Shown piece after piece: positions 43,920-50,180 of a stretch of 64,000 nucleotides of DNA. This DNA comes from Phenylobacterium sp. GTDB lineage: Bacteria; Pseudomonadota; Alphaproteobacteria; Caulobacterales; Caulobacteraceae. Within the stretch, counting starts at the first letter, position 1. Each line of letters opens with the position of its first letter. The notes beneath the pieces were generated by a model. That model did no database searches. It was not told where the DNA came from and worked only from the letters and a program-made list of their open reading frames with translations. Made by a program: the position numbers and the translations under genes. Where the stretch lies: positions 1 to 64,000 of the forward strand of contig NZ_JACESE010000008.1 of the NCBI RefSeq assembly GCF_013911965.1. The letters are read 5' to 3'.

Positions 43920-44417
43920 ATGCTGAGGATTGGGTACGTCCGACTGCGGGACGCGCGTTCGGCGGAGGATACCGCCACCTTGAAAGGCTTCGGCTGCCAT
44001 GTGGTCCGCGCCGAGGAACCGGCGGGTCCGGACGCCGACGATTCCGCCGTCCTGTCTTCGATTCTCGACTTCATCGCCGAGGGCGATCAGCTGGTCGTCA
44101 CGCGCCTGGAGCACCTGGCCCACTCCACCCGCACCGTGCTGGAGGTCATCGACCGGCTGGAGCAGCGCCGGGCCAGCCTCTTCGTGATCGAACCGGAGCT
44201 GTCCACCGACGGCGAAGGCGGCCGCGCCCTGCGCGCGGCGCTGAAGGCGGTGGCCTCCGTGGAGCCCGCCTGGAGCGGCCGCAAGCGCCGCAGCGCGCCG
44301 GCGCCGGAGGAGATCCGCGCCTTGCAGCAGGCCGGGGTCGGCCCCGTGGAGATCGCCCGTCGCCTCGGCGTGTCGCGCATGACCGTCTGGCGCAAGTTGC
44401 GCGCGATGGAGGCCTGA
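43920..44417 (+). CDS. Degenerate serine-recombinase-like DNA-binding protein (catalytic residues lost)
   Basis: 165 aa. The shape is that of a short resolvase/invertase: an N-terminal catalytic fold (GYVRLRDARS at the place of GYxRVSTxxQ), a helix with VTRLEHLAHSTRTVLEVIDRLEQR, and a C-terminal helix-turn-helix (IRALQQAGVGPVEIARRLGVSRMTVWRKL). Yet the nucleophilic serine is replaced by Arg10, and the usual D-R-x-x-R catalytic residues read E64, H65 and H68. It is therefore predicted not to recombine DNA but could bind it as a regulator. No inverted repeats or transposase partner nearby. Confidence 0.75.
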   Translation: MLRIGYVRLRDARSAEDTATLKGFGCHVVRAEEPAGPDADDSAVLSSILDFIAEGDQLVVTRLEHLAHSTRTVLEVIDRLEQRRASLFVIEPELSTDGEGGRALRAALKAVASVEPAWSGRKRRSAPAPEEIRALQQAGVGPVEIARRLGVSRMTVWRKLRAMEA

Positions 44418-46441: not shown

Positions 46442-46983
46442 TGGGCGGCGCCCTCGTCACCCACGTGGCGAGCCGGCCGGGCCATTCCTTTTCCAAGACT
46501 CTGCAGACCGAGATCCGGCTGATCGCCGGGCTGGGCGTCGAGGGCGACGGACATGCGGGGGCGACCGTCCAGCACCGCTCGCGCGTCGCCAAGGATCCGA
46601 GCCAGCCGAACCTGCGCCAGGTGCACCTGATGGCCGGCGAATTCCATGACGAGCTGAACGCCGCCGGCTTCGACGTTTCACCCGGCGACCTGGGCGAGAA
46701 CCTGACGACGCGCGGGATTGCGCTGCTGGAGCTTTCCGCCGGCTCACGGCTGCGGATCGGCCACGAGGCGGTGGTGGAGATCACTGGCCTGCGCAATCCG
46801 TGCTGGCAGCTGGACGCCTTTCAGCCCGGCCTGACCGCCGCCAGCCTCGGCCGCGACGCCGAGGGCGGCCTGGTGCGCAAGGCCGGCGTGATGGGGATCG
46901 TTCTGGCCGGCGGCCTCGTGCGGCCCGGCGACGCCATCGCCATTGAGGCGCCGGCGGTCTTCCGGAAACTGGAACGGGTCTAG
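46441..46983 (+). CDS. MOSC domain-containing protein
   Basis: 180 aa. The MOSC fold is shown by GVEGDGHAGATVQHRS (start), FDVSPGDLGENLTTRGIAL and the sulfur-binding cysteine in LRNPCWQLDAF. MOSC proteins carry or use sulfur delivered by MoCo sulfurases or act on N-hydroxylated substrates; no further domain is fused. Translationally coupled with the TetR gene, so it may be under that repressor. Its last 4 bases overlap the convergent UdgX-fusion gene. Confidence 0.9.
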   Translation: MGGALVTHVASRPGHSFSKTLQTEIRLIAGLGVEGDGHAGATVQHRSRVAKDPSQPNLRQVHLMAGEFHDELNAAGFDVSPGDLGENLTTRGIALLELSAGSRLRIGHEAVVEITGLRNPCWQLDAFQPGLTAASLGRDAEGGLVRKAGVMGIVLAGGLVRPGDAIAIEAPAVFRKLERV

Positions 46984-48413
46984 GCGACCAGGCTCCAGGC
47001 GAACCGCAGATCCTGGACGAACTCGGCATAGGCGCGGGCCTTGGCCTCGGCGTCCGGAACCCGCAGCAGGTAGGAGGGGTGCCAGGTGACCACGCCCTGG
47101 GCCTGGTCCTCGAGCTGGAACGCCTGGCCGCGGGACTTGCCGATCGGCAGGCTCTTGCCCATGACGCCGCGCACCGCGGTGGCGCCCAGGGCGACGACGA
47201 CGCGCGGCCGCACGATCCGCCGTTCGGCCTCCAGCCACCAGCGGCAGGCCTCGATTTCCGGCGCGTCCGGCGTCTTGTGCAGCCGCCGCTTGCCGCGCAG
47301 CTCATGCTTGAAGTGCTTGACCGCGTTGGTGACGTAGGCCTCGCGCCGCGGCACGCCAGCCTCGTTCAGAGCGCGGTCGAACATCTGGCCCGCCGGCCCG
47401 ACGAAGGGCTTGCCGGCCAGGTCCTCCTGGTCCCCGGGCTGCTCGCCCACGAACATCAGCCGCGCGGTCTCCGGCCCCTCGCCGGCCACGCCTTGGGTCG
47501 CGTCCTTCCAGAGATGGCAGCGCCGGCAGGCGTCGACCCCGGCGGCGATCTCGGCCAGCGTCGCCGGCGCCGACCCTTCATAGGGGGCGTCGCGGCTGGC
47601 GCGCCGGGCGGCGCGGACGATGCGGCGGGCGGGTTCGGAAGGGCTCTGGGCGACCATGGTCTCTGTCCGGGCCTGTGCGGAACGGGTCAGTTCGGGAATG
47701 AGCGCAGCCTCGGGAAGGTTGCGCCAGTAGCGCTTGGGCATCTCCTTCCGCATGGCCGAGAGCCGCACCCGCGCCGGATTGAAAGTCGCCGCATAGTAGG
47801 TGCGCCAGAACGCCTCCAGGGCGTCTTCGGCCGGCGCATCGGCCGGATCGGCGCCTGGCGTGAAGCGGAGCGTCTCGGTGTCCCAATGGGCGCAGACGTC
47901 CGGCGTCAGGATGGAAAAGCGCATGTTGGCGAACCGCCGGACGAAGAAGGGCGCGGTGGCTTCGGTCACCCGGTGGGCCGGCTCGAACCAGGCGACATAG
48001 GCCTCCTCGTCCGCTGCGGCCGCCACGGACCGGAAGCGGACGAAGGCCTTCATCTTGTGAGCGGCGCGATCCACCTGGCGTTCCATGTCGCGGGCGCGGA
48101 CGACATCTTCATCCGCCGGCTGGGCGAGCAGATGGGGCGTCTCCGGCAATCGCCAGAGCAGACGGTAGAGCAGGTCGAACCGCGCCGGCGAGCGGTGCAG
48201 CACGACCCGCTGGGCCAGATCGACGAAGCTGCGCGAAACGCGGATGGCGCCCGCCCCGCCCTCGTCCTGCGCCGGCTCGGCGAACAGATCGGCCGCGCCG
48301 TCGTCGACCGTCCAGACCACGTCGGCCGGGGAGACGCCGCCCGTCCGCAGGGCCCTGGCCGCCTCGCGCCAGCCCTCGAAATCGGTCTCAGAAGCCAGCC
48401 TCACGACGCGCAT
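46980..48413 (-). CDS. DUF4130-UdgX fusion: covalent uracil-DNA binding repair protein
   Basis: 477 aa. Residues 1 to about 250 are the DUF4130 (SAM-linked) domain with the H-K-M-K-A-F-V-R-F-R segment near 120. Residues about 285-477 are UdgX: an iron-sulfur pair C296/C299 (CRRCHLW), GEQPGDQED (323-331), the R-loop KRRLHKTP with H379, C390, and HPSYLLR. UdgX in mycobacteria removes uracil and then locks onto the abasic site by a covalent bond through this loop histidine. The gene starts 1 base after the radical SAM stop. Both share the SOS box upstream. Confidence 0.9.
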   Translation of the reverse strand: MRVVRLASETDFEGWREAARALRTGGVSPADVVWTVDDGAADLFAEPAQDEGGAGAIRVSRSFVDLAQRVVLHRSPARFDLLYRLLWRLPETPHLLAQPADEDVVRARDMERQVDRAAHKMKAFVRFRSVAAAADEEAYVAWFEPAHRVTEATAPFFVRRFANMRFSILTPDVCAHWDTETLRFTPGADPADAPAEDALEAFWRTYYAATFNPARVRLSAMRKEMPKRYWRNLPEAALIPELTRSAQARTETMVAQSPSEPARRIVRAARRASRDAPYEGSAPATLAEIAAGVDACRRCHLWKDATQGVAGEGPETARLMFVGEQPGDQEDLAGKPFVGPAGQMFDRALNEAGVPRREAYVTNAVKHFKHELRGKRRLHKTPDAPEIEACRWWLEAERRIVRPRVVVALGATAVRGVMGKSLPIGKSRGQAFQLEDQAQGVVTWHPSYLLRVPDAEAKARAYAEFVQDLRFAWSLVA

Positions 48414-48414
48414 G

Positions 48415-49641
48415 TCAGAAGAGGCTCGGCTGCTCGGGCGCCGGCGCGAAGCGCGCCCGAAGACCCTCGGCGTCGGTCAGGCCCCCTGGTCGCCAGTCCT
48501 CCAGCACGACGAAGGGCTTCAGCTTCTCCAGGCTGCGGCAGATGCGCTTGAGATCGGCCAGCCGCAGGCGGGCCAGGCGACGGGCGGCGATCAGGCGCTC
48601 CACGCCCATGGCCCCCAGCCCCGGCACCCGCAGCAGCGTCTCGCGATCGGCGCGGTTCAGATCGACGGGAAACCGGTCCCGGTTCTTCAGCGCCCAGGCA
48701 AGCTTCGGATCGATGGCGAGATCGAGGTCCTGGCCCGGCGGCGCGATCTCCTCTGTCTCGAAGCCGTAGAACCGCATCAGCCAGTCGGCTTGGTAGAGCC
48801 GGTGTTCGCGCATCAGCGGCGGCCGCTGGGGCGGCAGGGATTTGGACACGTCCGGGATGGGGCTGAAGGCCGAATAGTAGACGCGGCGCAGGCCATAGGC
48901 GCCGTAGAGGCTCGCCGAGCGGCCGAGGATCTCGCCGTCCGAAGCCCCGTCGGCGCCGACGATCATCTGGGTCGACTGCCCCGCCGGCGCAAACTTGGGC
49001 GGCCGCGCCTTGCGCCCAGGCTCGGCGCCGGCCTCGATCCCCAGGCGCACCGCCCCCATGGCCTTGCGGATGACGCCCGCATCCTTTTCCGGCGCGAAGG
49101 CCGCCAGGCTCTCGTCCTTGGGCAATTCGATATTGATGGAGACACGGTCGGCGTAGAGGGCCGCCGCATTGACCAGTTCGGGCGAGGCCTCGGGGATCAG
49201 CTTGAGGTGAATATAGCCGCGGAAGTCGTGGACCTGCCGTAGGTCGCGGGCGACCTTCACCAGCTGCTCCATGGTGTAGTCGCCCGACCGGATGATGCCG
49301 GAGGAGAGAAACAGCCCCTCGATATAGTTGCGCTTGTAGAAGCCGAGCGTGAGGTCGACCACCTCCTGCGCGGAGAACCTTGCGCGCGGCGTGTTGGAGG
49401 ACACACGGTTCACGCAGTAGGCGCAGTCATAGATGCAGTAGTTGGTGAGCAGGATCTTCAGAAGGCTCACGCACCGCCCGTCGGGCGTATAGGCGTGGCA
49501 GATCCCCATGCCCTCGGTGGACCCGACACCCTTACCGCCCCGGGAGTCTCGCCCCTTCGCGCCGGACGAGGCGCAGGAGGCGTCGTACTTGGCGGCGTCG
49601 GCGAGGATGGAAAGCTTCTGCTTGAGGTCGAGAACGGCCAT
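48415..49641 (-). CDS. Putative DNA modification/repair radical SAM protein
   Basis: 408 aa. The start reads LKQKLSILADAAKYDASCASSG, as in the UdgX-linked radical SAM family (TIGR03916-type). The iron-sulfur motif CxxxCxxC is C69, C73, C76 in NYCIYDCAYC. The C-terminal third has helix-hairpin-helix DNA-binding motifs (LLRVPGLGAMGVERLIAARRL). The substrate is unknown; coupling to UdgX implies action on DNA damage. A GTTC-N7-GTTC box lies 14 bases upstream of the ATG. No clear RBS is seen. Confidence 0.9.
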   Translation of the reverse strand: MAVLDLKQKLSILADAAKYDASCASSGAKGRDSRGGKGVGSTEGMGICHAYTPDGRCVSLLKILLTNYCIYDCAYCVNRVSSNTPRARFSAQEVVDLTLGFYKRNYIEGLFLSSGIIRSGDYTMEQLVKVARDLRQVHDFRGYIHLKLIPEASPELVNAAALYADRVSINIELPKDESLAAFAPEKDAGVIRKAMGAVRLGIEAGAEPGRKARPPKFAPAGQSTQMIVGADGASDGEILGRSASLYGAYGLRRVYYSAFSPIPDVSKSLPPQRPPLMREHRLYQADWLMRFYGFETEEIAPPGQDLDLAIDPKLAWALKNRDRFPVDLNRADRETLLRVPGLGAMGVERLIAARRLARLRLADLKRICRSLEKLKPFVVLEDWRPGGLTDAEGLRARFAPAPEQPSLF

Positions 49642-49655
49642 GGGGCCATTCTAAT

Positions 49656-49670
49656 GTTCCCATTTTGTTC
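49656..49670. promoter_or_regulatory. LexA (SOS) box upstream of the radical SAM-UdgX operon
   Basis: GTTCCCATTTTGTTC is an exact fit to the alphaproteobacterial LexA consensus GTTC-N7-GTTC. It is 14 bases before the radical SAM start codon, so a bound repressor would block transcription. It also lies about 110 bases upstream of the divergent GFA gene. SOS control is inferred from the site; established LexA biology in this class supports it. Confidence 0.85.
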
Positions 49671-49781: not shown

Positions 49782-50180
49782 GTGCGTGTCGAAGGTGGAT
49801 GTCTTTGCGGCCAGGTCCGGTACGTCGCCGACGGAGAACCCGTGAATGTCCGCATCTGCCATTGTCGGATGTGCCAAGCCGCGATCGGCGCGGCGTTTAA
49901 CGCCCGCATGCTGTTCCGCCGCTCAGACGTCGAGATCACCGGGGAGATCCGCCAGTTCAATTCCTCGCCTGAGCTGGCGCGGGGCTTCTGCGCGACCTGT
50001 GGCTCCACGCTGTTCTCAGCGCGTGAGAGCCAGGGACTGATCGGTCTGACAAGCGGAACGCTGGACGACCCGTCGGTGTTTCAGCCCACCATGCACATTT
50101 GGACGTCCTCGCGGCAGCCCTGGCTGAGGATCGACGATGGCCTGCCGCAATATGCGGAGGCCCCGCCGGCCCAGGGCTGA
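49782..50180 (+). CDS. GFA/CENP-V family zinc protein
   Basis: 132 aa from a GTG start behind AAGGAG with 7-base spacing; longer frames lack support. The zinc cysteines are in EGGCLCGQVRY, CHCRMCQ and CATCGST, the pattern of the GFA (glutathione-dependent formaldehyde-activating enzyme-like) family. Gfa-like proteins of this size rarely have proven formaldehyde activity. A dispersed palindromic repeat directly follows. Expression may be influenced by the neighbouring LexA box, though this is speculative. Confidence 0.85.
   Translation: MRVEGGCLCGQVRYVADGEPVNVRICHCRMCQAAIGAAFNARMLFRRSDVEITGEIRQFNSSPELARGFCATCGSTLFSARESQGLIGLTSGTLDDPSVFQPTMHIWTSSRQPWLRIDDGLPQYAEAPPAQG

Follow-up and report, generated by a model that had tools for sequence, protein, structure and literature searches.

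A predicted SOS operon pairing a radical SAM protein with DUF4130, with UdgX as a probable accessory module, in Phenylobacterium and other bacteria

We analyzed a 64,000-nucleotide stretch of Phenylobacterium sp. DNA (assembly GCF_013911965.1, contig NZ_JACESE010000008.1, positions 1 to 64,000; hereafter the window), in which a gene for a radical S-adenosylmethionine (SAM) protein and a gene fusing DUF4130 to UdgX form a two-gene operon. The reading we favor, with a probability of roughly 0.6, is that this is an SOS-induced repair operon, that its radical SAM and DUF4130 products would act while tethered to the beta sliding clamp, and that UdgX is an accessory found in Proteobacteria. Its base in sequence and comparison consists of the domains, LexA boxes matched to each lineage, constant pairing of the radical SAM and DUF4130 proteins, optional UdgX, a clamp motif and six cysteines. 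Best supported by these comparisons is the view that radical SAM and DUF4130 constitute the constant pair, UdgX being an accessory and not the reason for the pair. The features concerned are these:

46980..48413, minus strand: DUF4130-UdgX fusion gene, 477 aa, matching TIGR03915 and TIGR03914 and the Pfam models DUF4130 and UDG
47001..47702, minus strand: UdgX domain (TIGR03914)
47277..47291, minus strand: R-loop KRRLH with H379, from alignment with Mycobacterium smegmatis UdgX
47706..48392, minus strand: DUF4130 domain (TIGR03915)
48415..49641, minus strand: radical SAM gene, 408 aa, matching TIGR03916 (rSAM_link_UDG) at E 1.4e-163
48418..48432, minus strand: putative C-terminal beta-clamp-binding motif QPSLF, after the QxxLF consensus
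48574..48672, minus strand: helix-hairpin-helix (HhH) region (RVPGLG), residues ~324-356, ComEA- and RuvA-like with weak scores
49414..49437, minus strand: CxxxCxxC (C69, C73, C76), the SAM [4Fe-4S] motif, in 71/71 aligned sequences
49471..49575, minus strand: three extra invariant cysteines, C23, C48 and C57, in 71/71 aligned sequences
49656..49670, plus strand: LexA (SOS) box GTTCCCATTTTGTTC, 14 bases from the radical SAM ATG

By its open reading frames (ORFs), the second gene of the operon begins one base after the first, and the window proteins score above the cut-off of all three models in the NCBIfam trio TIGR03916, TIGR03915 and TIGR03914 (for TIGR03916, 544.9 bits against a curated 343.5). 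We found no difference between the window proteins and that trio, the names of which, such as "putative DNA modification/repair radical SAM protein" for TIGR03916 (NCBIfam), define no reaction. The original prediction had proposed this minus-strand operon from the letters of the sequence and singled out the CxxxCxxC motif, an HhH region and the loop histidine of UdgX: both ORFs lie where it placed them and match the three families, CxxxCxxC is present as C69/C73/C76, and UdgX with H379 is supported by sequence, while of the HhH claim only the presence of the region stood, its score being below the Pfam cut-off (HHH_3, 17.9 bits against 27).

A perfect GTTC-N7-GTTC box 14 bases from the operon start had likewise been predicted, and it is present; lying on the plus strand, it reads GAAC-N7-GAAC on the strand of the genes. 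Because 0.99 matches would be expected in the window by chance, this single match is not significant by itself, and an argument from the window alone was thereby ruled out; what is significant is its position and its conservation. Genome-wide, the pattern occurs at 102 sites, as compared to 30 for the same pattern read backward. We read 20 stretches out of 100 listed sites in this genome, picked mainly for T-rich spacers, and found that boxes precede recA, lexA, uvrA, ruvC and yifB/comM (by matched protein fragments), an mmcB-like gene (by a Pfam match) and a gene with weak similarity to imuA (34.4 bits against a cut-off of 150), together accounting for 7/20 stretches, and that one further box precedes a DNA polymerase III alpha gene. 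Scored with a matrix built from the seven SOS-gene boxes, which themselves belong to the 100 that were ranked, the operon box came 4th. Two other T-rich boxes in this genome (L031 and L033) lie near the starts of ORFs of 93 and 269 aa, which are candidate new SOS genes.

Conservation was surveyed at orthologous loci drawn from searches for the radical SAM gene among 60 genomes of relatives (a match in 23, the window's own included), 190 genomes of the class (17 matched, 10 over the cut-off) and 299 genomes of the phylum (66 matched, 53 over the cut-off), plus a further set of named loci, the best 80 of 589. Boxes were sought in the 120 nucleotides before each radical SAM start; L073, L074 and L075, which are incomplete or fragments of a single broken gene, were dropped from these counts, and the weak matches L085-L091 were lost, since tblastn did not find them. 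The original prediction had suggested asking whether the LexA box recurs at orthologous operons: GTTC-N7-GTTC was present at 62/63 alphaproteobacterial loci, window included, and at 45/46 outside the window's own genus, against 1/63 for the backward-read pattern and 0 in an in-gene window; the sole exception, L057, carries a box with one mismatch. The sites lie in both orientations (51 and 12), which vary even inside families, so the box may have been remade several times. At 16 loci from other proteobacterial classes, presumably the beta and gamma classes since they are labeled with the same phylum, GTTC-N7-GTTC was found at 0/16, and CTG-N10-CAG at 12/16 (in-gene control 1, mirrored control 0), with two more loci (L129 and L138) at which it overlaps the chosen start; the latter pattern occurs at 1/63 alphaproteobacterial loci. 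Among the best 80 of 589 named loci, CTAA-N5-TTAG was found at 16 and GGA-N5-TCC at 11, or 27 in all, with matched controls of 0 and 3; a passage of PMC8565304 describes both as Bacteroidetes SOS motifs. The operon thus has an alphaproteobacterial box near its start, of the kind that core SOS genes also carry and that orthologues conserve. SOS control, as originally proposed, is strongly supported by these lineage-specific boxes, although it is probably not new, and by the same comparisons the operon is probably switched on by DNA damage. In one genome of the window's own genus (G011; L072, L074 and L075), the radical SAM gene is in three pieces and the upstream box is intact.

A second line of evidence concerns the end of the radical SAM protein. 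The beta-clamp motif consensus is given as QL[S/D]LF, generally QxxLF, in the relevant passage of PMC12309361, and C-terminal placement of clamp motifs is noted in a passage of PMC4549789. Among 156 full radical SAM proteins (L072, L073, L074, L075 and L084 left out), the final 16 residues contain Q[LM]xLF in 106, another QxxL-hydrophobic form in 26 and the hexapeptide Q[LM]x[LF]x[LF] in 16, such that the motif is found in 132/156 tails in its strict or generic form and in 148/156 once the hexapeptide is included. Shuffled tails gave 0.3% strict, 7.4% generic and 1.2% hexapeptide matches, and 3829 windows taken elsewhere in these proteins held 0 strict and 33 generic ones. Three of the 8 tails lacking the motif end in QLQLI, QMLLI or QLSLI, and the Paracoccus protein L224 ends in QLALI; further afield, the motif lies near the C-terminus in two Bacillota proteins (QLSIF and QLSLF), one from Gemmatimonadota (L221; QLSLW) and one from Spirosoma (QLSLF). 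The HhH signature and the motif are separated by 62 to 149 residues in 130 proteins, a spread expected of a tethered motif. Clamp-binding replication and repair proteins such as Bacillus subtilis PolC (C-terminal QLSLF) have a motif of the same short kind at their C-terminus or close to it; the window protein, unlike PolC, is not a polymerase, and its motifs mark it as an iron-sulfur radical enzyme.

A clamp motif would also suit the pair as a mutagenesis factor belonging to the ImuA-ImuB-DnaE2 mutasome, aiding lesion bypass at the clamp with no reversal of damage. The radical SAM gene is preceded, at four alphaproteobacterial loci of one family (L105-L108), by a divergent gene family whose tested representative, L107, bears a weak resemblance to ImuA (39.3 bits, cut-off 150), so that both genes may share SOS boxes; in addition, DUF4130 is called a predicted mutagenesis-related enzyme in a passage of PMC3765255. 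However, this neighbor is limited in our set to those four loci, and a radical SAM protein with six conserved cysteines points to chemistry on a substrate, so we regard mutasome membership as unlikely. A divergent homologous gene lies upstream at 12 named loci as well (L159, L160, L161, L162, L165, L168, L177, L182, L184, L189, L201 and L205); its tested member, L168, is S24 peptidase/helix-turn-helix (HTH) repressor-like and is possibly the Bacteroidetes LexA.

The third line of evidence is the constancy of the partner. Over curated cut-offs, the 299 phylum genomes included 53 with the radical SAM protein, 56 with DUF4130 and 52 with UdgX. Caulobacter vibrioides has matches to all three. DUF4130 was present in 53/53 radical SAM genomes and occurred without radical SAM in 3/56; UdgX was over its cut-off in 40/53 and not over it in 13/53 (Pseudomonadota), and 12/52 UdgX genomes had no radical SAM gene. 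Sub-cut-off UdgX matches in 7 of those 13 genomes, two of them near 1e-31, are perhaps other family-4 glycosylases. DUF4130 lies on the same strand as radical SAM in 153/162 locus stretches, three of which are one broken gene, with some of the misses being contig or stretch ends; it mostly adjoins radical SAM, often with an overlap of 1 or 4 bases and, among the rows listed, with a separation of at most ~1.7 kb. Genes inserted between the two, examined by eye at 12 loci (alpha/beta-hydrolase-like, hemerythrin-like and others), showed no pattern and were set aside as clues, as were the remaining neighbor clusters, which looked like local synteny.

TIGR03914 at E <= 0.001 matched 0/24 Bacteroidota/Moraxellaceae genomes with a radical SAM locus (chosen from 80), a UdgX domain is encoded at 0/80 of the named loci (the best 80 of 589) within the stretch around each, and for six DUF4130 proteins that stand alone, the DUF4130 model matches and UDG models do not. 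In a quick maximum-likelihood tree covering 104 rows (with every third named locus, rooted at the midpoint; L072, L073, L074, L075 and L084 dropped), two deep groups separate. The first holds Bacteroidota, Bacillota, Fibrobacterota and Moraxellaceae and shows no UDG in any partner that was read; in the second are the remaining Proteobacteria, most of which carry the fused UdgX, although several branches lack it. The Psychrobacter and Acinetobacter loci L141 and L180 are placed within the Bacteroidota group, together with L092, at which we found neither of the proteobacterial LexA boxes; this placement suggests transfer.

These distributions bear on the most specific claim of the original prediction, namely that UdgX shields abasic sites covalently and that the radical SAM enzyme and DUF4130 process or release the resulting crosslink. 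In the window, the UdgX part matches M. smegmatis UdgX (6AJO) at E 3e-55 and shares its motifs GEQPG (Gln), TNAV (Asn), KRR-x-H and HPS..LLR; H379 of KRRLH aligns with the KRRIH histidine at the nucleophile position, and three cysteines that align with UdgX are candidate [4Fe-4S] ligands. It differs from M. smegmatis UdgX in being fused behind DUF4130 and adjoining a radical SAM gene. According to the passages of PMC10359453 on UdgX, its histidine forms a bond with the abasic deoxyribose at C1'; the same passages call the precise physiological role of UdgX largely unknown. A crosslink-release function would account for DUF4130 and UdgX being one polypeptide, encoded one base from the radical SAM gene, and for UdgX being over its cut-off in three-quarters of the radical SAM genomes. 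Yet such a model explains the fusion and not the general role, because the 13 Pseudomonadota genomes keep the pair with no UdgX over the cut-off and all 24 Bacteroidota/Moraxellaceae genomes have no match to UdgX, and because UdgX is itself found without the radical SAM gene. The SOS box, moreover, was kept at 11/12 loci read among those 13 Pseudomonadota genomes, in one case overlapping the start; G311, one of the 13, had no SOS box that we could find, and G513, over the radical SAM cut-off, was left out of the 12. Release of the UdgX crosslink is therefore not supported as a general role and seems to us improbable, with a role confined to the fused form being possible.

Radical chemistry on DNA bases is rare. 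Apart from the six invariant positions, cysteine occupies fewer than half of the rows in every column of the 71-row radical SAM alignment, and C23, C48 and C57 may, on this alignment, form an auxiliary iron-sulfur site or be catalytic cysteines. Pfam PF04055 scores 26.9 bits, slightly below its cut-off of 29.5, and a profile search of solved sequences gave 22 matches up to E = 1, of which the radical SAM ones were all weak (HydE, HydG, ThiH and a biotin/thiamin-synthesis-associated protein). One could take literally the label "SplB-like", used in a figure legend of PMC3765255, and envision reversal of thymine photoproducts in the manner of spore photoproduct lyase, which is likewise a radical SAM enzyme tied to DNA repair; SplB is also described as SOS-regulated in several species in a passage of PMC8565304. 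No spore photoproduct lyase entry appears by name among the 22 matches, however, and the same source lists SplB (COG1533) apart from COG4277, while the window protein has three extra cysteines, an HhH region and a clamp motif. With no lyase of that name among the profile matches up to E = 1, the label is a poor guide to the reaction, and we consider such an activity very unlikely. Least credible, at odds that are close to negligible, is an anti-phage or mobile-element function through DNA modification: the patchy distribution of the gene (23/60 genomes of relatives) and its occurrence in 158/72,556 plasmid records, some very large, would suit it, but no PADLOC model matched at E <= 0.01, and LexA boxes and a clamp motif fit host repair. 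The plasmid records, some of them megabases long, are most commonly from Phaeobacter (58), Paracoccus (15; for example, L224) and Azospirillum (11). Phage records matched in 10/50,697 cases, eight of these being unannotated fecal contigs.

For the clamp-tethered repair operon that we prefer, we infer actual induction, clamp binding, DNA as the substrate, the chemistry and the role of DUF4130, and could envision the following sequence of events. On DNA damage, LexA would leave the box and both proteins would be made together. The radical SAM enzyme would bind DNA through its HhH region, and its C-terminal QxxLF would tether it to the beta sliding clamp, allowing it to work at replication forks and gaps. 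There, SAM-derived radical chemistry would be directed at a nucleotide that is damaged or altered, DUF4130 being the obligate partner; in Proteobacteria, the DUF4130-fused UdgX would excise uracil near the same site and cap the abasic site covalently. More tentatively, and with somewhat less than even odds, the operon may represent a new class of replication-coupled repair, present in several phyla, in which a radical enzyme tethered to the clamp and carrying a second iron-sulfur site would act directly on a lesion at SOS-induced forks, reversing or converting it, and UdgX would be a later proteobacterial module.

Several observations weigh against a clamp-tethered, SOS-induced repair operon. 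A core SOS gene was not recognized in 13/20 of the stretches read in the window's own genome. The loci are not independent, 17/63 alphaproteobacterial ones being from the window's own genus, and no box was found at L057 (one mismatch away), L092 or L111, neither CTAA-N5-TTAG nor GGA-N5-TCC at 53/80 of the named loci (the best 80 of 589), and none of the four box patterns at the loci from Bacillota (two), Gemmatimonadota (one) and Spirosoma (one). The sequence taken as a clamp motif is short, the window copy QPSLF differs from the best consensus, and 8/156 tails are without it, that of the Clostridiales locus L219 among them. An auxiliary cluster at C23/C48/C57 is a suggestion. Finally, L221 (Gemmatirosa kalamazoonensis, 38.5% identity), which lies outside the 71-sequence alignment, lacks cysteine throughout its first 30 residues, and no DUF4130 is evident next to its gene, so that it may be another subfamily.

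The relation of the operon to known systems depends on the identity of COG4277, which we take to be the radical SAM/HhH family of the window operon. A two-gene COG1573-COG4277 operon is under SOS control in Bacteroidetes and is called a uracil-DNA glycosylase excision system in passages of PMC8565304, which cite others for the same control in Verrucomicrobia and Alphaproteobacteria (Caulobacter). If the two families are indeed the same, SOS control of this type of operon is very likely already known, and the window operon resembles that one in its two genes and its regulation. It differs in that its constant pair is radical SAM and DUF4130, with no UdgX at the 80 named loci; judging from those passages, the COG1573 uracil-DNA glycosylases reported in Bacteroidetes may be DUF4130 proteins without UDG (compare L144 and L206). 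In a search that had most subscription papers outside its reach, no paper turned up that connects UdgX to radical SAM, none that names TIGR03916, a single one that names COG4277 and no assigned reaction for the radical SAM-DUF4130 SOS pair; matches to sliding clamp, radical SAM and SOS together were unrelated by title or opening of the abstract, and the available portions of PMC1839093 and PMC10776899 added nothing on the operon. The operon is real and well conserved, and what our analysis adds is the clamp motif, the constant radical SAM-DUF4130 pair and the extra cysteines.

Two neighbors in the window may be mentioned. A divergent gene of the GFA family (glutathione-dependent formaldehyde-activating; 49785-50177) begins, at its chosen start, ~115 bases from the SOS box and could share it with the operon. 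A short resolvase-like protein of 165 aa (43920-44414), with resolvase N-terminal and HTH domains, has no obvious role.

Regardless of the reaction involved, the clamp motif and the constant pairing with DUF4130 offer a direct handle on where and with whom the enzyme works, and lineages without UdgX allow the pair to be studied free of a glycosylase that crosslinks. Should the pair prove independent of UdgX, the label of "uracil-excision system" misses the core of the operon.

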